From contig NZ_JAAQTL010000001.1 of NCBI RefSeq assembly GCF_011742875.1, forward strand, positions 1,922,001 to 1,986,000: DNA of 64,000 bases, in the 5' to 3' direction. A program made the translations under genes and the position numbers. Within the stretch, counting starts at the first letter, position 1; each line of letters starts with the position of its first letter. The DNA comes from Luteibacter yeojuensis. Lineage in GTDB: Bacteria; Pseudomonadota; Gammaproteobacteria; Xanthomonadales; Rhodanobacteraceae. Below the pieces are notes generated by a model. It made no database searches. It was not told the DNA's origin and worked only from the letters and a program-made list of their open reading frames with translations. Shown piece after piece: positions 4,741 through 59,727 of the stretch.

Positions 4741-6090
4741 TCATTCCCCGGCGATGGTCATCTTCTCCACCAGCCAGGAGCCGGTGAGAATATGCGAGCG
4801 GTGATCGACATCCGCGCCCACGGCGACCAGATTCGCATACATGTCGCGCAGGTTCGCGGCGATGGTGATCTCCTCGACCGGATACGCGATCCTGCCGTTT
4901 TCCACCCAGAAACCCGACGCCCCGCGCGAGTAATCGCCGGTAACGATCGACACGCCCTGCCCCATCACCTCGGTGACCAGCAGGCCGGTGCCGAGCTTGC
5001 GCAGCATGCCCTCGAAATCGTCGTCGCCGGTCTTCACGTAGAGGTTGTGCACGCCGCCGGCATTGCCGGTGGACGACAGGCCGAGCTTGCGCGCGGAATA
5101 GCTGCCCAGGATATAGCGCTGGAGGACACCGTCCACGACCAGCGGCGCATCCATGGTGGCCACGCCCTCCGCGTCGAAGACGGAGGAACCGAGGCCGCGC
5201 GGCACCAGCGGCTTCTCGTCGATGCGGAACCAGGACGGCAGGATCTGCTTGCCCGCATGGTCGACCAGGAAACTGGAGCGCCGATAGAGCGAACCCCCGC
5301 TCACCGCGCCCAGGAGGTGGCCGAGCAGCGAGCGCGACACTTCGGGCGCGAACAGCACCGGCGCCTGGCGCGTGCCGAGGCGACGTGCGCCCAGGCGCGA
5401 CAGCGTGCGCTCGGCGGCCTTCCGGCCGATCTCGCCCGCGTCCATGAAGTCGCCGGCGCGGCGAACGCTGTCGTACCAGTAGTCGCGCTGCATGCCCTCG
5501 TCGTCGCCGGCGATCAGCGCGACCGACAGCGAATGCCGGGTACCGCGTTCGCGGCCGAGGAAGCCGTGCGAATTGGCGTAGACGGAGAGGCTCTGGCCCA
5601 CATTGACGCTCGAACCGTCGGAATTCGTGATGCCGGCGATGGCGCGGCCGGCATCCTCGATCTCCTGGCCCAGCGCAATGGCAGCGTCCACGTCCAGGTC
5701 CCACGGATGCCAGAGGTCGAGGTCCGGGAAATCCGTAGCCATGCGCTCCGCGTCGGCGAGGCCCGAGGCCGGGTCTTCCTCGGTGAAGCGCGCGATGGCG
5801 CAGGCCTGCTCGATGGTGGCCTGGATCGAATCGGGGTTGAGGTCGGCCGTGCTCGCCGAGCCCTTGCGCCGGCCGAAATACACGGTGAGCGCGAAACCGC
5901 GGTCGCGGGTGTGCTCCACCGTCTCCACCTCGCCCAGGCGGACGTTCACGTTCAGGCCCACGTCGATGCTGGCCGACACCTCCGCCTGGCTGGCCCCCGC
6001 GGCGCGGGCGCGCCGGATCGTGTCCTCGGCCAGTCCGGCGAGGCGATCGAGGTCCTGGTGGCTGGTATCGGGGGTCGCAACTTGGCTCAC
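4741..6090 (-). CDS. pmbA: PmbA/TldE, metalloprotease-like subunit
   Basis: PmbA (TldE) is the non-catalytic half of the TldD/TldE heterodimer. In E. coli the dimer removes the leader of microcin B17 and degrades unfolded peptides and the CcdA antitoxin. The protein is 449 residues, normal for the family. It has the N-terminal 'SASIDVGLNVNVRLGEVETVEHTRDRG' pattern and a C-terminal 'NGRIAYPVEEITIAANL..MYANLVAVGADVD..S..LTGSWLVEKMTIAGE' pattern. As expected for TldE it has no HExxxH motif. Its partner tldD is in the same window at 17,899-19,338. It is divergent from the DUF1653 gene. Confidence 0.94.
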   Translation of the reverse strand: MSQVATPDTSHQDLDRLAGLAEDTIRRARAAGASQAEVSASIDVGLNVNVRLGEVETVEHTRDRGFALTVYFGRRKGSASTADLNPDSIQATIEQACAIARFTEEDPASGLADAERMATDFPDLDLWHPWDLDVDAAIALGQEIEDAGRAIAGITNSDGSSVNVGQSLSVYANSHGFLGRERGTRHSLSVALIAGDDEGMQRDYWYDSVRRAGDFMDAGEIGRKAAERTLSRLGARRLGTRQAPVLFAPEVSRSLLGHLLGAVSGGSLYRRSSFLVDHAGKQILPSWFRIDEKPLVPRGLGSSVFDAEGVATMDAPLVVDGVLQRYILGSYSARKLGLSSTGNAGGVHNLYVKTGDDDFEGMLRKLGTGLLVTEVMGQGVSIVTGDYSRGASGFWVENGRIAYPVEEITIAANLRDMYANLVAVGADVDHRSHILTGSWLVEKMTIAGE

Positions 6091-17898: not shown

Positions 17899-19338
17899 TT
17901 ATGCGGCGGTGCCGCCCACCGTCATGCCGTCTACGCGAAGCGTCGGCTGGCCTACGCCTACCGGGACGCTCTGGCCATCCTTGCCGCAGACGCCTACGCC
18001 TTCGTCGAGGGCGAGATCGTTGCCGATCATCGAGACACGGGTCAGCACGTCGGGACCGGAACCCACCAGCGTGGCGCCCTTCACCGGACGCGTGATCTTG
18101 CCGTCCTCGATCAGGTAGGCCTCGCTCGCCGAGAACACGAACTTGCCGTTCGTGATGTCGACCTGGCCGCCGCCGAAGTTCACCGCGTAGAGACCCCGCT
18201 TCACCGAGCGGACGATCTCTTCCGGCTCGCGGTTACCCGCCAGCATGTACGTGTTCGTCATGCGCGGCATCGGCAGCTGCGCGAAGGACTCGCGGCGACC
18301 GTTGCCCGTCGACTTCACGCCCATCAGGCGCGCGTTGAGCTTGTCCTGCATGTAGCCCTTAAGGATGCCGTTCTCGATCAGCGTGGTGCACTCCGTCGGC
18401 GTGCCCTCGTCGTCGATGCTCAGCGAGCCGCGGCGGCCCGGCAGCGTGCCGTCGTCGACGACGGTGACGCCTTCGGCCGCCACGCGCTGGCCGATGCGGC
18501 CCGCGAAGGCGGAACTGCCCTTGCGGTTGAAGTCGCCTTCCAGGCCATGGCCGATCGCCTCGTGCAGCAGGATGCCCGGCCAGCCGGGACCGAGCACGAC
18601 GCTCATGCTGCCAGCCGGCGCATCGACCGCCTCGAGGTTCACCAGCGCCTGGCGCACCGCTTCCGCGGCGAAGGCGTGCGCGCGGCCGTTGTCGATCAGC
18701 TCGCGATAACCGTAACGGCCGCCGCCGCCGGCGTGTCCCTGTTCGCGGCGACCGTTCTGCTCGGCGATCACCTGCACGTTGAGGCGCACGAGCGGACGGA
18801 CGTCGGCGGCCAGCGTGCCATCGGAACCGGCGACAAGGATGGTGTCCATCGTGGCGGCGAGGCTCACGACCACCTGCTTCACCCGCGGATCGCGGGAGCG
18901 CGCGTAGGCGTCCACCTCGCGCAGCAGCGCGATCTTGTCTTCGTTCGGCAGGCTTTCCACCGGATCGATGGCGGGATACAGGCCGCGACCCGTTGCGATC
19001 GCCAGCGGCTTGCCCGCGCCCGCGCCGCCCTGCGCGATCGCGCGCGCGGCGCGCGAGGCCTCGAGCAGCTGCGGCAACACGATTTCGTCGGAATAGGAAA
19101 AGCCGGTCTTTTCGCCGGAGATGGCGCGCACGCCGACGCCCTGCTCGATCGAGTGGCTGCCGTCCTTCACGATGCCCTCTTCCAGCACCCACGACTCGCT
19201 GCGCGAATGCTGGAAATAGAGGTCCGCCGCGTCGATCGACGGTCCCATCAACTGGGAGAACACGCGATCGAGGTCGTTGGCGGCGAGGCCTCCGGGGGTG
19301 AGGAGACGGCGTTCGGCGAGGGAGATCAGGGAATCCAT
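17899..19338 (-). CDS. tldD: TldD, metalloprotease subunit
   Basis: TldD is the catalytic half of the TldD/TldE (PmbA) protease. It forms a nanochamber that cuts unfolded peptides and RiPP leaders such as that of microcin B17. The zinc motif HEAIGH (HExxxH) lies in '[19 protein letters not shown]', in the middle of the 479-residue chain. The C-terminal '[28 protein letters not shown]' pattern is typical. It is the last gene of the conserved maf-rng-yhdP-tldD cluster, 74 bases downstream of yhdP. Its partner pmbA is encoded separately at 4,741-6,090. Confidence 0.96.
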
Positions 19339-54963: not shown

Positions 54964-57105
54964 ATGACCAAGCAGTATCTGAAGCCGCTCGCGCTGGCGC
55001 TCTCCGTGGCGCTGGCCGGCACGGCGTGCAGCAAGCACAACGACGACGCGGCAGCGCCGGGGGGCAGCCAGCCGTCGTCGACGTCCACCGCGGCGCCCGC
55101 CGCCGCCGGCAGCACCGCCGCGGCCACGCCCGCCGGCCCGACGTTCAACATCGCCGAACTCGACACCGGCATCGACGCTTGCGCCGATTTCAACGGTTTC
55201 GTCAACGCGAAGTGGGTGGCCGCCAACCCGATTCCCGAAGACCGTACCCGCTGGGGCGCCTTCGACCAGCTGGCCGAGAACAGCCTGAACACGCAGCACG
55301 ATATCGTCGACGCGATGGACAAGGGCGCGGCCAATGCCAAGGCCGGGTCGATCGAGCAGAAGATCGGCCTGCTCTATCGCTCGGGCATGAACGAGGACGC
55401 CATCGAAAAGGCGGGCATCGAGCCGCTGAAGCCGGAACTGGCGAAGATCGACGCGCTGAAGAGCTCGCAGGACATCGCCGATTTCCTCGATGCCAGCTTC
55501 AACGAAGGCGACGGCTACGTCTTCGGCTTCGGCTCGGGCGCGGACTTCCAGAACGCGAAGATGCAGATCGCCTACGCGCAGCAGGATGGCCTGGGCCTGC
55601 CGACCAAGGATTACTACACCGATCCGAAGCAGGCCGATAACCGCAAGGCCTACCTCGCGTACATCGCCAAGACCCTGACCCTCGCCGGCGTGCCCGAGGC
55701 CGATGCGAAGAAGCAGGCCGATGACGTGATGAAGTTCGAGACCCGGCTCGCCGCCGCCTCGCTCGCACCGGTGGAACTGCGCGTGCCGGAGAACCAGTAC
55801 CACTTCGTCTCCGTGAACGACGCGGACAAGCTGACCCCGCACTTCAACTGGGAGAAGTTCTTCGCCGCCCAAGGCGTGAAGGTCGACAAGGGCTTCTCGC
55901 TGTCGCAGCCGAAGTTCTTCAAGGAATTCGACAAGATGCTGGCGTCCACGCCGGTGTCCACCTGGCAGGCCTACCTGCGTTTCCACGCCATCGACAGCGC
56001 CTCGCCGTACCTGTCCAAGCCGTTCCAGGACAACAAGTTCGACTTCTACAACAAGACCCTCGCCGGCCAGCCGCAGCAGAAGCCGCGCTGGAAGCGCGTG
56101 CTCGGCACGGTCAACAGCTCGATGGGCGAGGCCCTCGGCCAGCTCTACGTCGCCAAGGTGTTCAAGCCGGAAGCGAAGCAACGCGCCAACGAACTGGTCG
56201 ACAACGTGCGCAACGCCCTCAAGACGCGCATCGAGAACCTCGACTGGATGAGCGACGAGACCAAGCAGAAGGCGATCCAGAAGTGGAACACCTTCCTGCC
56301 GAAGATCGGCTACCCGGACAAGTGGCGCGACTGGTCGGGCCTGGACATCGACGGCGAGAACTACTTCGCCAACGTCGAGGCCGCCAGCAAGTTCAACTAC
56401 CACTACGACATCGCGAAGATCGGCAAGCCGACCGATCGCCTCGAATGGGGCATGACGCCGCAGACGGTCAACGCCTATTACAACCCGACCGACAACACGA
56501 TCAACTTCCCGGCCGCCATCCTGCAGCCGCCGTTCTTCGACGCCAACGGCGACGACGCCATCAACTACGGCGGTATCGGCGCGGTGATCGGCCATGAGGC
56601 CAGCCATGGCTTCGACGACGAGGGCAGCCAGTTCGACGGCGACGGCAACAACAAGAACTGGTGGACCAAGGAAGACCGCGCCAAGTTCGACGAACGCGCC
56701 GGCAAGCTGGTGAAGCAGTTCGACGAGTACGCGCCGATCAAGGACCACCCGGACCTGCACGTCAACGGCAAGCTCACCCTGGGCGAGAACATTGCCGATC
56801 TGGGTGGCCTCAACGTGGCCTACGACGCGCTGCAGGAAGCGCTCAAGAAGAACCCGCAGGAAGCCAACGCGAAGATCGACGGTTACACCCAGGACCAGCG
56901 CTTCTTCCTCAACTGGGCCCGCGTGTGGCGCGGCAACGTCCGCGAGAAGCAGGCGATGCTGTACCTCAACGTCGACCCGCACGCACCGGCCTCGCTGCGC
57001 GCCATCGGCGCGCCGTCGAACATGGAAGCCTTCGCCACGGCGTTCCAGTGCAAGCCGGACGCGAAGATGGTCCGTGCGACCGACAAGCAGGTGAAGATCT
57101 GGTAA
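54964..57105 (+). CDS. pepO: M13 (neprilysin-type) zinc endopeptidase
   Basis: This 713-residue endopeptidase has an export signal with a lipoprotein-like 'ALAGTAC' (C22) and an Ala/Pro/Ser-rich linker to ~55. The N-terminal M13 domain follows, then the catalytic domain: 'NAYYNP', HEASH at 544-548 ('GHEASHGFDDEGSQFD'), and E608 in 'GENIADLGG' as third zinc ligand. The tail 'CKPDAKM..' is typical. It is a periplasmic or outer-membrane oligopeptidase. Codons are strongly biased, suggesting high expression. A strong terminator follows ~30 bases after the stop. Confidence 0.95.
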   Translation: MTKQYLKPLALALSVALAGTACSKHNDDAAAPGGSQPSSTSTAAPAAAGSTAAATPAGPTFNIAELDTGIDACADFNGFVNAKWVAANPIPEDRTRWGAFDQLAENSLNTQHDIVDAMDKGAANAKAGSIEQKIGLLYRSGMNEDAIEKAGIEPLKPELAKIDALKSSQDIADFLDASFNEGDGYVFGFGSGADFQNAKMQIAYAQQDGLGLPTKDYYTDPKQADNRKAYLAYIAKTLTLAGVPEADAKKQADDVMKFETRLAAASLAPVELRVPENQYHFVSVNDADKLTPHFNWEKFFAAQGVKVDKGFSLSQPKFFKEFDKMLASTPVSTWQAYLRFHAIDSASPYLSKPFQDNKFDFYNKTLAGQPQQKPRWKRVLGTVNSSMGEALGQLYVAKVFKPEAKQRANELVDNVRNALKTRIENLDWMSDETKQKAIQKWNTFLPKIGYPDKWRDWSGLDIDGENYFANVEAASKFNYHYDIAKIGKPTDRLEWGMTPQTVNAYYNPTDNTINFPAAILQPPFFDANGDDAINYGGIGAVIGHEASHGFDDEGSQFDGDGNNKNWWTKEDRAKFDERAGKLVKQFDEYAPIKDHPDLHVNGKLTLGENIADLGGLNVAYDALQEALKKNPQEANAKIDGYTQDQRFFLNWARVWRGNVREKQAMLYLNVDPHAPASLRAIGAPSNMEAFATAFQCKPDAKMVRATDKQVKIW

Positions 57106-57137
57106 GCGCGACACGCCATCGCTGAAGCGATGGACCC

Positions 57138-57168
57138 AAGGCGCCGCACGCGAGTGCGGCGCCTTTTT
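57138..57168 (+). terminator. Rho-independent terminator after the M13 gene
   Basis: A 12-bp stem, AAGGCGCCGCAC / GTGCGGCGCCTT, has a 4-base loop (57150-57153) and is followed by a T-run. It separates the M13 gene from the peptide/YcaO locus, which therefore needs its own promoter. Confidence 0.93.
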
Positions 57169-57243
57169 CATGAGGGTCGCTCGTTCGCAGCGTGGCGTGG
57201 GAGAGAACATCGCCGGAGCGACGACGTCGATCTCGGAATTCGC

Positions 57244-57273
57244 TTGCAAGGATCTCAGGGCTCGTCCAATGAT
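57244..57273 (+). promoter_or_regulatory. Weak promoter candidate for the YcaO locus
   Basis: TTGCAA (57244-57249), an 18-base spacer, and AATGAT (57268-57273). It lies after the M13 terminator and upstream of the leader hairpin. The match is moderate and other positions are possible. Confidence 0.3.
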
Positions 57274-57303
57274 CGGCCGACTCACGCTCTCCTAGTCTGG
57301 ATG

Positions 57304-57330
57304 TGCCGTCGCACCACTCCCGCGACGGCA
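57304..57330 (+). promoter_or_regulatory. Leader hairpin upstream of the precursor peptide gene
   Basis: A perfect 9-bp inverted repeat, TGCCGTCGC (57304-57312) / GCGACGGCA (57322-57330), has a 9-base loop. It lies ~14 bases before the AAGGAG ribosome site of the peptide gene. It could stabilise the mRNA or be an operator. Confidence 0.5.
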
Positions 57331-57357
57331 TCCCCTAACGAAACAAGGAGAATCCCC

Positions 57358-57474
57358 ATGGGATACATGACCCGCGCCTTCGCTCACCTGCCCGGCGAGA
57401 ACGAGCAGGAAGACGCCGCGACCGTCGTCGCCCGTCTGGCACCGACCGAGCTCGACGAGATCGCCGAGGATTGA
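57358..57474 (+). CDS. Putative RiPP precursor peptide (38 aa)
   Basis: A 38-residue ORF starts 7 bases after a strong AAGGAG site, 47 bases upstream of the YcaO gene. It begins MGYMTRAFAHLPGE, then has an acidic stretch (ENEQED), and ends in an amphipathic helix-like 'LAPTELDEIAED'. It contains no Cys and no Ser; Thr5, Thr22 and Thr30 are the only hydroxyl residues apart from Tyr3. The ending resembles the 'ELdxiAGG' end of many leader peptides but without GG and with nothing after it. An N-terminal core with a C-terminal follower, as in bottromycin, is therefore possible. The call rests on context and ribosome site; no known family was recognised. Confidence 0.68.
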   Translation: MGYMTRAFAHLPGENEQEDAATVVARLAPTELDEIAED

Positions 57475-57481
57475 CGGCAGT

Positions 57482-57506
57482 GGAACGGGGCCGATGGCCC
57501 CGTTCC
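57482..57506 (+). terminator. Intercistronic hairpin between precursor and YcaO genes (probable leaky terminator)
   Basis: A perfect 11-bp stem, GGAACGGGGCC (57482-57492) / GGCCCCGTTCC (57496-57506), has a GAT loop. Only TT follows, so termination is probably partial. It sits 7 bases after the peptide stop and immediately before the YcaO ribosome site. Confidence 0.7.
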
Positions 57507-57521
57507 TTCATGGAGGAGCAC

Positions 57522-58739
57522 ATGATTCCATTCGAACGCGAATTCCCATTAGCCGCCGCCCGCGCACGCATCGAGGCCGCCCTCGCCGACCACGGGCTGC
57601 GCTGGCGCGCGACGGTCCACGGCGAAGCCCTGCATGCCACCCTGGTCGAACTGTTCGATGCGGAAGGCAGGCCCTTGTGCACGGGCGTGGGGAAGGGCGA
57701 TGCGGAAACAGCGCTCGTCGGCGGGTTGTTCGAAGCCTTCGAACATCATCTCGCGCTGCACGATGCATGCTCCGCGCACCATGTGCTGACGCCGGCGGCA
57801 CGGGTTCCCCAGGGACTGGGCAAGGCGATCGACGCCCTGCTCGCCGAGCAGCCGGAAAGCTCGATGGCCTGCCGCGTCTATGCCGACTTCTTCCATGGCG
57901 GCGCGGCGCTGTATCCGCTCGCCCTCGCCCGCCCCACCTATATCGACGATCCCGCCCCCGGCGACGACTTCGACTATGCGAGCCTTCGCCGTTATGCCTG
58001 CAACAGCGGCACGGCTATCGGGTCCACGCCCACGGAGGCGAGCCTGCACGCGATGAACGAAGCCATCGAACGCGACGACGTTTCCCATTTTCTGCGCGCG
58101 CATTTCCACGACCGCGACGACGAGGCACTGCGCGTGGTCGACCGGCGGACCGTCGAGCGCGACATCGAGCGGCTCTGGTCGCTGGCAGAGCGCGAACTGG
58201 GTCAGGATGCCATCCTGCTCGACATTTCCTCGCACAAGTCCGCGCACACCTTCCTGGCCTTCGCCCCCACCTGTCCCCACCCCGTGCACGTCTACGGAAG
58301 CGGCAGCTCCGCGCGGGCATCGCATGGCATGCGCCGCGCCCTGAGCGAACTGGTGCAGATGCATGTCATGGCGCAGGTCGCGCCGGCCGTGGCGAACGAC
58401 CTGATCCGCGCGGAGTTACGCCTCCGTCCGTGGCCGCGACTGCACCGGGCCTGCGTCGCCGACCTTCCCGCGCGATTCGACGCGGCACGGCGGCAGCATG
58501 TAACGCCACGGAACACCGCCTCCGCCGGCAGCGTCGCCGCGCAGCTGTCGCAAGGCATGCGCGGGCTGCGTGACGAGGGTTATTCGCCACTCGTCCACAC
58601 GATCCACTGCCGCCATGGCGATATCGCGTTGTGCCAGGTCCTCGTGCCCGGCTTCGAGCATTACCATATCGTCGGACACGGCAACCTCGTGGTTCCCTCC
58701 TTCCCGATCCGACGTGCCAGCCATGCGCGATACGCCTGA
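57522..58739 (+). CDS. YcaO family RiPP-modifying enzyme (stand-alone)
   Basis: This 405-residue YcaO-domain protein has the ATP-binding features of the family: 'VGKGDAETALVGGLFEAFEHH' (residues ~56-76) and 'SGTAIGSTPTEASLHAMNEAIERDD' (~162-186) with the conserved glutamates. YcaO enzymes phosphorylate backbone amides and form azolines, thioamides or amidines. It has no fused E1-like/ThiF domain and no TfuA partner nearby, and its C-terminus is not proline-rich, so it is not a typical azoline synthase. The start at 57522 is set by GGAGG five bases upstream; the frame is open back to 57471. It overlaps the methyltransferase start by 17 bases. Promiscuous ribosomal S12-type YcaO is less likely because of the peptide gene. 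Confidence 0.82.
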   Translation: MIPFEREFPLAAARARIEAALADHGLRWRATVHGEALHATLVELFDAEGRPLCTGVGKGDAETALVGGLFEAFEHHLALHDACSAHHVLTPAARVPQGLGKAIDALLAEQPESSMACRVYADFFHGGAALYPLALARPTYIDDPAPGDDFDYASLRRYACNSGTAIGSTPTEASLHAMNEAIERDDVSHFLRAHFHDRDDEALRVVDRRTVERDIERLWSLAERELGQDAILLDISSHKSAHTFLAFAPTCPHPVHVYGSGSSARASHGMRRALSELVQMHVMAQVAPAVANDLIRAELRLRPWPRLHRACVADLPARFDAARRQHVTPRNTASAGSVAAQLSQGMRGLRDEGYSPLVHTIHCRHGDIALCQVLVPGFEHYHIVGHGNLVVPSFPIRRASHARYA

Positions 58740-59727
58740 CTGGCTCCGCGACGAGCGGCAATGGCGCGACCGCATGCGCGACGCACGCGGCGACGCGCCA
58801 CGGCGGTACCGGCTCGTCGAGCGATCGTCCGAGGCGCGACAGCCCTACTTCCTGCTGCGGCATCGCGATAGGCAGTGGCTGGGACGCAGGTCGGTCATGG
58901 ACTCGCCCGCCGGCCCCTCGTTGTCGAACCGCATCCATGCAACGCACCTGCTTGGCGACCGACTCGACATGTCGTTGTGCAGCGAGATGCTCCTCTTCGA
59001 TTTCACCCTGCGCACGGCCACGGAGGCCGAGGGGTTCCTGCGCGAGGCTTCCGGCGATCCTTCGAGCGATCTCGTCTTTCCCTTCCCTCCGCTCGACGCC
59101 GGCGGCCGCGAAGCGGTCTGTCCACCGGCGTTCTGGGCGCGCCTCGCCTCGCGGCCGGCGCGCCTCGCCGAGGACGAGCTACATATGCGCTCCCTGTGTG
59201 CGGATACCCTGGCGCGGTGGCTGCGTCCCGGCGCGGTGGTGCGCGACCCGGCATGTTCCACCGGTGATTTCGTCGCCGCGATGGCCGCGAGCTGCCCCCT
59301 CTTGCGCTTCGAAGGCAGCGATATCTCGGCGAGCATGATCGACACCGCAAGGACACGGCACGCCGGCAGCGCGGTGGCCTTCGAGGTGGCCGACGCCACC
59401 GGAACAGGAATGGCATCGTGCGACGGCCTCATCGTGCGCTTCCTCAATGCCGAGGTCGTCACTCGCGCGCAGGCCTTGGCGATCTTCGACCGCCTCGTGG
59501 TTACCGTGCGTCCCGGCGGCATCGTCATACTCTTCGGACACACCCCCCTGCTCGTCCCGGTTCGCGGGCAGGCAGCCATGCACGGCCTGCGCGTCGTCCA
59601 GTGCAGCGCGGCGCTCCCGGAGGGCCCGGCGCTCGTCCAGTATTACGTGCTGGAGGTTCCCGACATGGGCAGGAGACCACCTTCCTCCAGAGGTCGGGAT
59701 GCGCACGTACTCTGCCGAAAGGCATAG
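58723..59727 (+). CDS. SAM-dependent class I methyltransferase of the YcaO locus
   Basis: This 334-residue protein has a ~155-residue N-terminal region of unknown fold ('RYRLVERSSEARQPYFLLRHRDRQWLG') and a Rossmann methyltransferase domain. Motif I is 'VVRDPACSTGDF' (172-183), followed by 'FEGSDISASMI' (196-206) and 'FLNAEVVTRAQALAIFDRLVVTVRPGGIVILFGH'. The start at 58723 overlaps the YcaO stop (58739), so the genes are coupled. It probably methylates the peptide, for example its N-terminus or a carboxylate, but the target cannot be read. Its N-terminal region is a candidate for substrate recognition. Confidence 0.8.
   Translation: MRDTPDWLRDERQWRDRMRDARGDAPRRYRLVERSSEARQPYFLLRHRDRQWLGRRSVMDSPAGPSLSNRIHATHLLGDRLDMSLCSEMLLFDFTLRTATEAEGFLREASGDPSSDLVFPFPPLDAGGREAVCPPAFWARLASRPARLAEDELHMRSLCADTLARWLRPGAVVRDPACSTGDFVAAMAASCPLLRFEGSDISASMIDTARTRHAGSAVAFEVADATGTGMASCDGLIVRFLNAEVVTRAQALAIFDRLVVTVRPGGIVILFGHTPLLVPVRGQAAMHGLRVVQCSAALPEGPALVQYYVLEVPDMGRRPPSSRGRDAHVLCRKA

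Follow-up and report, generated by a model that had tools for sequence, protein, structure and literature searches.

A putative three-gene YcaO cassette of Luteibacter yeojuensis with bottromycin-like logic and an isonocardicin synthase-like enzyme

Several described pathways bear comparison with a cassette carried by a 64,000-nucleotide stretch of the Luteibacter yeojuensis genome (contig NZ_JAAQTL010000001.1, the whole stretch being referred to as the window), in which a gene for a 38-residue peptide is followed by a YcaO gene and a third enzyme gene. We read this cassette, with a probability of about one half, as a complete mobile unit for a ribosomally synthesised and post-translationally modified peptide (RiPP) that would follow bottromycin-like logic, with amidine formation by the YcaO and alkylation of Tyr3 of the peptide by the third enzyme, a homologue of isonocardicin synthase (NAT). 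Shared with bottromycin (btm/bot/bmb) are the Met-Gly start of the precursor, the proposed N-terminal core and C-terminal follower, and partner-free YcaOs (PMC7136475); the LSxxExxxL motif of the bottromycin follower (LSALEMEEL) likewise recurs in most relatives of the window peptide. The two systems differ in that bottromycin clusters hold two YcaOs and the window only one, that the window peptide is devoid of Cys, and that the inserted DNA lacks a radical S-adenosylmethionine (SAM) methyltransferase, a P450, an amidohydrolase, an aminopeptidase and a transporter, while a NAT-like enzyme has been added. At E 10, neither the window peptide nor nine relatives matched the bottromycin precursor model NF033414, and the Met-Gly core with C-terminal follower typical of the bottromycin family is found here at the level of sequence only.

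Streptamidine (ami) is also a YcaO-dependent amidine RiPP with precursors that are not rich in Ser, Thr or Cys, and its own features are a core between leader and follower, an ALV motif, a need for AmiB and AmiE, and a proline-rich YcaO C-terminus (PMC8442711). None of these features is present in the window cassette, and membership was rejected. Isonocardicin synthase of the nocardicin pathway (PDB 8zhu and 8zhv, the latter containing nocardicin G) resembles the third enzyme over nearly its full length in sequence as well as in fold. Its acceptor, which we take to be a phenol, fits Tyr3; in contrast to the ribosomal peptide that neighbours the window enzyme, it acts on a non-ribosomal beta-lactam. 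In microcin C, made by a pathway that is not known to include a YcaO, MccD works on the nucleotide part of the molecule. That pathway is a RiPP route with aminocarboxypropyl transfer from SAM, where MccD differs by acting on a late microcin C intermediate and appears non-homologous to NAT (PMC10491745). Linear azol(in)e-containing and thiazole/oxazole-modified peptides were rejected as a class, considering that the window peptide contains no Cys, no Ser and three Thr and that the insertion holds no E1-like or ThiF-like partner gene; thioamitides were set aside with TfuA found in 0/1 own genome. The features of the cassette are as follows.

57358..57474, plus strand: precursor peptide, 38 aa, MGYMTRAFAHLPGENEQEDAATVVARLAPTELDEIAED (open reading frame with homologous peptides)
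57482..57506, plus strand: intercistronic hairpin, 11 bp, in the peptide/YcaO gap (fold, z -3.4)
57522..58739, plus strand: stand-alone YcaO, 405 aa (PF02624, 80.1 bits)
58723..59727, plus strand: isonocardicin synthase (NAT)-like 3-amino-3-carboxypropyl transferase, SAM-dependent, 334 aa (sequence and fold match)

The reading frames, the 47-base spacer between peptide and YcaO, the 17-base overlap of YcaO and third gene, the lack of Cys and Ser, the Met-Gly start and the strong Shine-Dalgarno sequence (AAGGAG, ahead of the peptide ATG) are all as an original prediction from the sequence had described them, whereas the 11-bp hairpin was absent from it.

Precursor peptides ahead of YcaO

Related YcaO loci were gathered from a contig scan (25 loci), from Pseudomonas (47 YcaO places, spread over 46 of 398 genomes) and from plasmids (8 records, three of them inspected), and 77 loci were analysed jointly. 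Two entries, L032 and L156, do not differ in their YcaO rows and are probably one record taken twice, so that the counts of 77 loci and of 24 loci with an ATP-binding cassette (ABC) transporter hold at least one double. Broken frames were counted as found, namely TAA in three YcaOs (G731, G827 and G880), a two-piece YcaO in L031 and L033, and TGA in the NAT of G874.

A small open reading frame (ORF) with Shine-Dalgarno sequence and ATG precedes the YcaO in 62 of the 77 loci and starts with Met-Gly in 60 of these 62, compared to 38/848 comparable ORFs at other places in these loci (99/917 if the peptides themselves are included). With peptides outside the filter added, a Met-Gly ORF is seen in 71/77, where 11 of the 71 were accepted on their Met-Gly start despite failing the start-codon, Shine-Dalgarno or distance filter; one further locus has a Met-Ser peptide, and no Met-Gly ORF was found upstream of YcaO in the remaining five (L021, L022, L025, L027 and L029). 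Within the genus, the two other YcaO-bearing genomes (three loci) show a Met-Gly peptide ahead of YcaO in each. The proposal that a RiPP-type precursor lies beside its own YcaO is borne out, related peptide ORFs preceding related YcaOs. Homologous YcaO genes lacking a conserved peptide ORF would have refuted the original prediction, and on this check the 71/77 loci speak for it. When 15 Pseudomonas peptides of equal length are compared, codon positions 1, 2 and 3 differ 754, 649 and 1901 times (summed over all pairs, so the comparisons are not independent), a pattern which argues for a coding gene beyond chance. Moreover, 49 of 60 loci show a stem no shorter than 8 bp (G-U allowed) 3' of the peptide gene, the mean being 10.0 bp as opposed to 5.1 in shuffled sequence, the 11 loci with shorter stems being 7 of the 8 actinobacterial loci scored plus L061, L097, L141 and L144. 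The window hairpin at 57482-57506 is a probable attenuator, which would yield more peptide than enzyme; a promoter and terminator scanner found no promoter at the locus and listed no plus-strand hairpin.

The 27 NAT-linked peptides (25 different) share an invariant M1, G2 and Y3, a variable middle, and a C-terminal block L-x-L-(T/S)-E-x-E-x-x-E-L, key positions of which are common to 19-25 of the 27. Tyr3 is the sole Tyr in 24 of them and the only one in the window peptide. Two conserved ends are the look expected of an N-terminal core with a C-terminal follower, congruent with the arrangement suggested at the outset, and we propose that the core runs from Gly2, once Met1 has been removed, and includes Tyr3, with ARLAPTELDEIAED as the follower. 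Across the broader set, 51/71 peptides carry [LF][TS]xxE towards their C-terminus versus 6.4 by shuffling, for a motif that was picked after the peptides had been viewed.

The third enzyme and the YcaO

The third gene had been labelled a SAM methyltransferase, and Pfam indeed reports a generic Methyltransf_25 domain over its cut-off. This label did not survive: judged by sequence and modelled fold, the protein is best read as a NAT-type homologue and not as a methyltransferase. In a PDB sequence search with the single protein, isonocardicin synthase was the only strong match (E 2.3e-23, residues 84-310), and a five-member profile matched it at E 1.2e-40 across positions 32-314 of 318 and across 41-324 of 326 in the chain. 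The AlphaFold model (predicted local distance difference test score, pLDDT, 92) recovered the nocardicin 3-amino-3-carboxypropyl transferase at E 8e-25, with template-modelling (TM) scores of 0.72-0.73 on the query and 0.83-0.86 on the target, followed by O-methyltransferases at E 6e-10 and a TM score of ~0.38. The CSTG and GHTPVL motifs are present in both proteins.

The gene 3' of YcaO tracks the peptide N-terminus across the set, as listed below (partners grouped by BLAST, with Pfam run on one member per group).

MGY peptides: NAT, 27 loci by profile (24 in the BLAST grouping)
MG-x-(K/R)-R-(S/T)-E peptides: ABC transporter, 24 loci
MGNVVDY-like peptides: NACHT ATPase, 8 loci
CCMYINEF peptides: Cys/Met-metabolism pyridoxal phosphate (PLP) enzyme, 4 loci
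Streptomyces peptides: SagB/nitroreductase-type dehydrogenase, two loci

The remaining loci, L006, L008 and L009 among them, have no common partner. Tyr3 is present in 27/27 NAT loci versus 1/45 loci without NAT, that one being the decayed locus L136, and all 22 Pseudomonas genomes with NAT (22/22) have a YcaO and an MGY peptide directly upstream. This pairing of peptide N-terminus and partner enzyme renders substrate specificity directly testable.

The window YcaO (AlphaFold pLDDT 89) is the only one that a search of its own genome found. For comparison, NF033414 matched 2 of 392 Streptomyces genomes, and both clusters, the precursors of which start with MGPV and carry LSALEMEEL in the follower, were taken as references. 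With the family profile, scores were 239 and 238 bits for the second bottromycin YcaO, 65 and 55 for the first one and 162 for an uncharacterised second YcaO from Stenotrophomonas, and the other references, typed by guess from frame length and without named thioamide, klebsazolicin or streptamidine YcaOs among them, spanned 13-78 bits, with the presumed E. coli-type (long-frame) ones at 13-15. In the reciprocal search with the second bottromycin YcaO, family members came first (the window YcaO at 68.8 bits, E 2e-21), while references stayed at or below 24 bits, two Pseudomonas/Stenotrophomonas YcaOs (36-38 bits) excepted; one of these two sits inside the YcaO family on the tree. By these scores, the second bottromycin YcaO is the nearest among the reference YcaOs compared. 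Of the earlier suggestion of a thioamide or amidine in place of azoles, the exclusion of an azole-type core stands; the nearest reference favours amidine without settling the choice.

Proposed pathway and competing explanations

In the pathway we propose, the 38-residue peptide would be produced in excess over the enzymes, as the hairpin 3' of its gene suggests. Host methionine aminopeptidase would strip Met1 to expose a free N-terminal Gly, in keeping with Gly at position 2 being the rule across the set. The YcaO would then bind the C-terminal follower and activate a backbone amide near the N-terminus, and attack by the Gly amine would give an amidine as in bottromycin, a step suggested by the Met-Gly start, the similar follower motif and the closest of the reference YcaOs. 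Macrocyclisation in bottromycin likewise requires Met1 removal and BtmF (PMC5103208). The NAT-like enzyme would alkylate Tyr3 with a 3-amino-3-carboxypropyl group, and a protease encoded outside the cassette would cleave the follower, leaving a short stretch of the N-terminus that carries an amidine and O-(3-amino-3-carboxypropyl)tyrosine. The original prediction correctly saw neither protease nor exporter in the cassette and put forward TldD/PmbA, a type of protease that matures some RiPPs. The genome indeed has two TldD/PmbA-domain genes, its only ones, and both lie within the window (minus-strand domain matches at 5791-5985 and 19033-19227, at a distance of 38-52 kb from the cassette). Another candidate maturation peptidase, missing from the window cassette, is an alpha/beta hydrolase (homologous to that of L010) found near NAT in 20 of 25 loci outside Luteibacter (24 Pseudomonas, 1 Pantoea), usually directly 3' of it, although the match in L102 is partial and the L104 copy lies upstream. 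The Hydrolase_4/S33 Pfam assignment refers to the L010 copy only (L010 9997-11010), which is presumably prolyl aminopeptidase-like.

A number of observations weigh against this pathway. The NAT-like protein is ~30% identical to isonocardicin synthase, at which level the transferred group is not proven, and one of the 22 NAT frames from Pseudomonas is interrupted by a TGA. The window follower (LAPTE, in LAPTELDEI) departs from the C-terminal block at several places, the strict follower motif is missed by the window peptide and by L105, and only 8 of the 24 ABC-subtype peptides carry [LF][TS]xxE. On the YcaO tree, NAT changes four times, with Tyr3 following in three and showing no difference in one (p 0.25), and with only four independent changes the sign test cannot reach significance. 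The point at which the bottromycin YcaO joins the maximum-likelihood tree lacks support, as the deep forks do generally, so that its closeness rests on profile scores. The modelled YcaO fold is nearest to E. coli YcaO (first) and to archaeal and cyanobactin YcaOs at a TM score of ~0.6, and the profile search pointed, weakly, to MusD and MJ1094, no bottromycin YcaO appearing in either the fold or the profile list. In Crone et al. 2016, macroamidine formation is attributed to BtmF with BtmI and BtmE is proposed for the thiazoline (PMC5103208). That the second bottromycin YcaO corresponds to BtmF is our reading of gene letters and gene order, not of a stated map, and the amidohydrolase BtmI, needed for macrocyclisation according to the same source (PMC5103208), is absent from the cassette.

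The same architecture could instead serve a YcaO that makes a thioamide near the N-terminal Gly. YcaOs without TfuA can do so, as exemplified by E. coli YcaO on uL16 (PMC13063428), the best PDB fold matches include that enzyme together with archaeal YcaOs, and there is a weak match to TIGR03266 (McrA-glycine thioamidation) at 21 bits, far below cut-off; we nevertheless regard a thioamide as unlikely, with the second bottromycin YcaO as the nearest profile reference, the presumed E. coli-type enzymes at the bottom of the scale and TfuA lacking in the genome. Quite unlikely, too, is plain methylation of the peptide (on O, N or C) by the third enzyme. The above-cut-off Methyltransf_25 domain would agree with this, as would the names that relatives carry in their source records, most of which, where they are definite at all, read class I SAM-dependent methyltransferase; several JGI names, however, read isonocardicin synthase. 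NAT is the best match by sequence and fold with a wide margin, including the pre-Rossmann region and the C-terminal GHTPVL, while methyltransferases in the profile search cover only approximately positions 142-297.

It is somewhat unlikely, yet conceivable, that the product is no antibiotic but serves its producer as a cofactor, metallophore or signal, with the cassette as a maturation system akin to that of pyrroloquinoline quinone. The lack of an exporter and the conservation of the peptide type over many Pseudomonas are compatible with this notion, and aminocarboxypropyl transfer is known from metallophores (PMC10491745). Against it stand the patchy spread (4/233 in the family, 22/398 in Pseudomonas) and the empty insertion site described below, which fit a dispensable trait, the ABC transporter of a sister subtype, and TonB receptors near the Luteibacter loci that look like old neighbourhood. 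We consider it highly improbable that the small ORF arose by chance or is the remnant of a leader, with the YcaO acting on another protein: its C-terminal block does resemble the LSxxExxxV(G) block of classical leaders, but the codon-position pattern, the 60/62 Met-Gly starts, the hairpin of its own and the invariant M-G-Y all speak for a genuine precursor.

Insertion site, distribution and the wider set

The cassette is bounded on its left by the terminator of an M13 peptidase gene and interrupts a neighbourhood found without it in a related genome.

57138..57165, plus strand: terminator hairpin closing the M13 peptidase gene to the left of the cassette (12-bp stem, then a T run)
57173..59717, no strand: approximate extent of the cassette insertion (tblastn of neighbours and flank alignment against G003)

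The upstream terminator in the original prediction proved real, folding of 57105-57172 giving z -4.9. In genome G003, which has the most similar copy of the same M13 gene (94%) and no YcaO, the gap from M13 to a glycosyltransferase (PMT-type) is ~165 bases by tblastn, and this glycosyltransferase is the gene behind the third gene in the window. Flank alignment of window and G003 shows homology ending at ~57172 and returning at ~59718, from which the insertion comprises peptide, YcaO and third gene with no further gene visible; the last codons and stop of the third gene fall in DNA common to the empty site, i.e. in old flank. By this comparison, the three genes form one unit, which we read as complete and mobile. 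Fourteen other M13 loci of the genus (up to 1.5 kb beyond M13) have the glycosyltransferase in one case, a TonB receptor in five (one partial) and neither in eight, including G004 and G010, which have their own peptide and YcaO copy further along. As the receptor lies directly after M13 in 5 of these 14 loci (one partial), all five from genomes without this YcaO, a siderophore link via nearby TonB receptors is disfavoured, and the receptors by the Luteibacter loci appear to belong to the older surroundings.

This YcaO is rare, being found in 3/61 genomes of relatives and 4/233 of the family (own genome counted in both). The NAT-like gene is present in 22/398 genomes of one Pseudomonas genus group (one frame, G874, being the broken one), and in a phylum-wide sample the own genome was the sole match (1/398). 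The patchy distribution and the empty site agree with a dispensable trait. Adjoining YcaO and NAT hits of equal score lie on large plasmids of Pantoea eucrina (L062), Pantoea sp. PSNIH1 and Acinetobacter venetianus (3/3 plasmid NAT hits adjoin a YcaO hit; the peptide, checked in L062, is MGYL), and equal-scoring pairs on plasmids of two genera are a sign of recent transfer.

Tentatively, the window could represent one branch of an undescribed superfamily, a prospect we hold as quite possible rather than probable, in which leaderless Met-Gly peptides and a bottromycin-type YcaO are combined with one of several interchangeable partners (NAT, ABC transporter, NACHT ATPase, PLP enzyme or SagB-type dehydrogenase), the product here bearing an N-terminal amidine and O-(3-amino-3-carboxypropyl)tyrosine. 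In line with the original prediction of an apparently undescribed locus, a literature search, mostly outside subscription journals, yielded no description of the YcaO/Met-Gly family. To our knowledge, the bottromycin strategy is known only from actinobacteria, and we know of no ribosomal peptide with O-(3-amino-3-carboxypropyl)tyrosine as a side-chain modification. If correct, common Gram-negative bacteria would share this strategy, in cassettes of two to four genes that lend themselves readily to expression in E. coli, and NAT-type enzymes would gain a peptide substrate, enabling a genetically encoded second amino acid on tyrosine.

Other members of the set deserve mention. L136 (genome G747) is decayed, with an open YcaO frame, no NAT and a peptide cut to a 25-residue MSYM ORF (Met-Ser) without follower, a possible natural record of cassette loss. 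In L014-L020 and L026 (Nonomuraea, Spongiactinospora and Acrocarpospora), a NACHT-group protein (a NACHT NTPase in L015) is encoded 3' of the MGNVVDY-like peptide and the YcaO, and five of these loci have a divergent trypsin-like protein upstream (Pfam on L015); tied to a NACHT protein, such a RiPP-type cassette has the look of a system for conflict or signalling. Pseudomonas genomes and a conjugative Vibrio plasmid carry loci in which an MG-x-(K/R)-R-(S/T)-E-(I/V) peptide accompanies YcaO and a homologue of an ABC transporter (L030-L033, L061 and L141-L159). The MGxxCCMYINEF peptides of L137-L140 have Cys-Cys in the core, a PLP enzyme 3' of YcaO (Pfam on L137) and YcaOs nearest to the NAT-linked one of Pantoea. 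L009 and L054, from Stenotrophomonas tumulicola, show a very short hydrophobic MGIFGIPFLISG peptide ~215 bases before YcaO, and the genome of this species has a second, distant YcaO, the one scoring 162 bits with the family profile. Finally, G010 holds two divergent Met-Gly/YcaO loci (L006 and L008), both without NAT; L006 adjoins the same M13 gene as the window cassette, and its peptide starts with MGLYMCYCHHLP and contains two Cys and two His.

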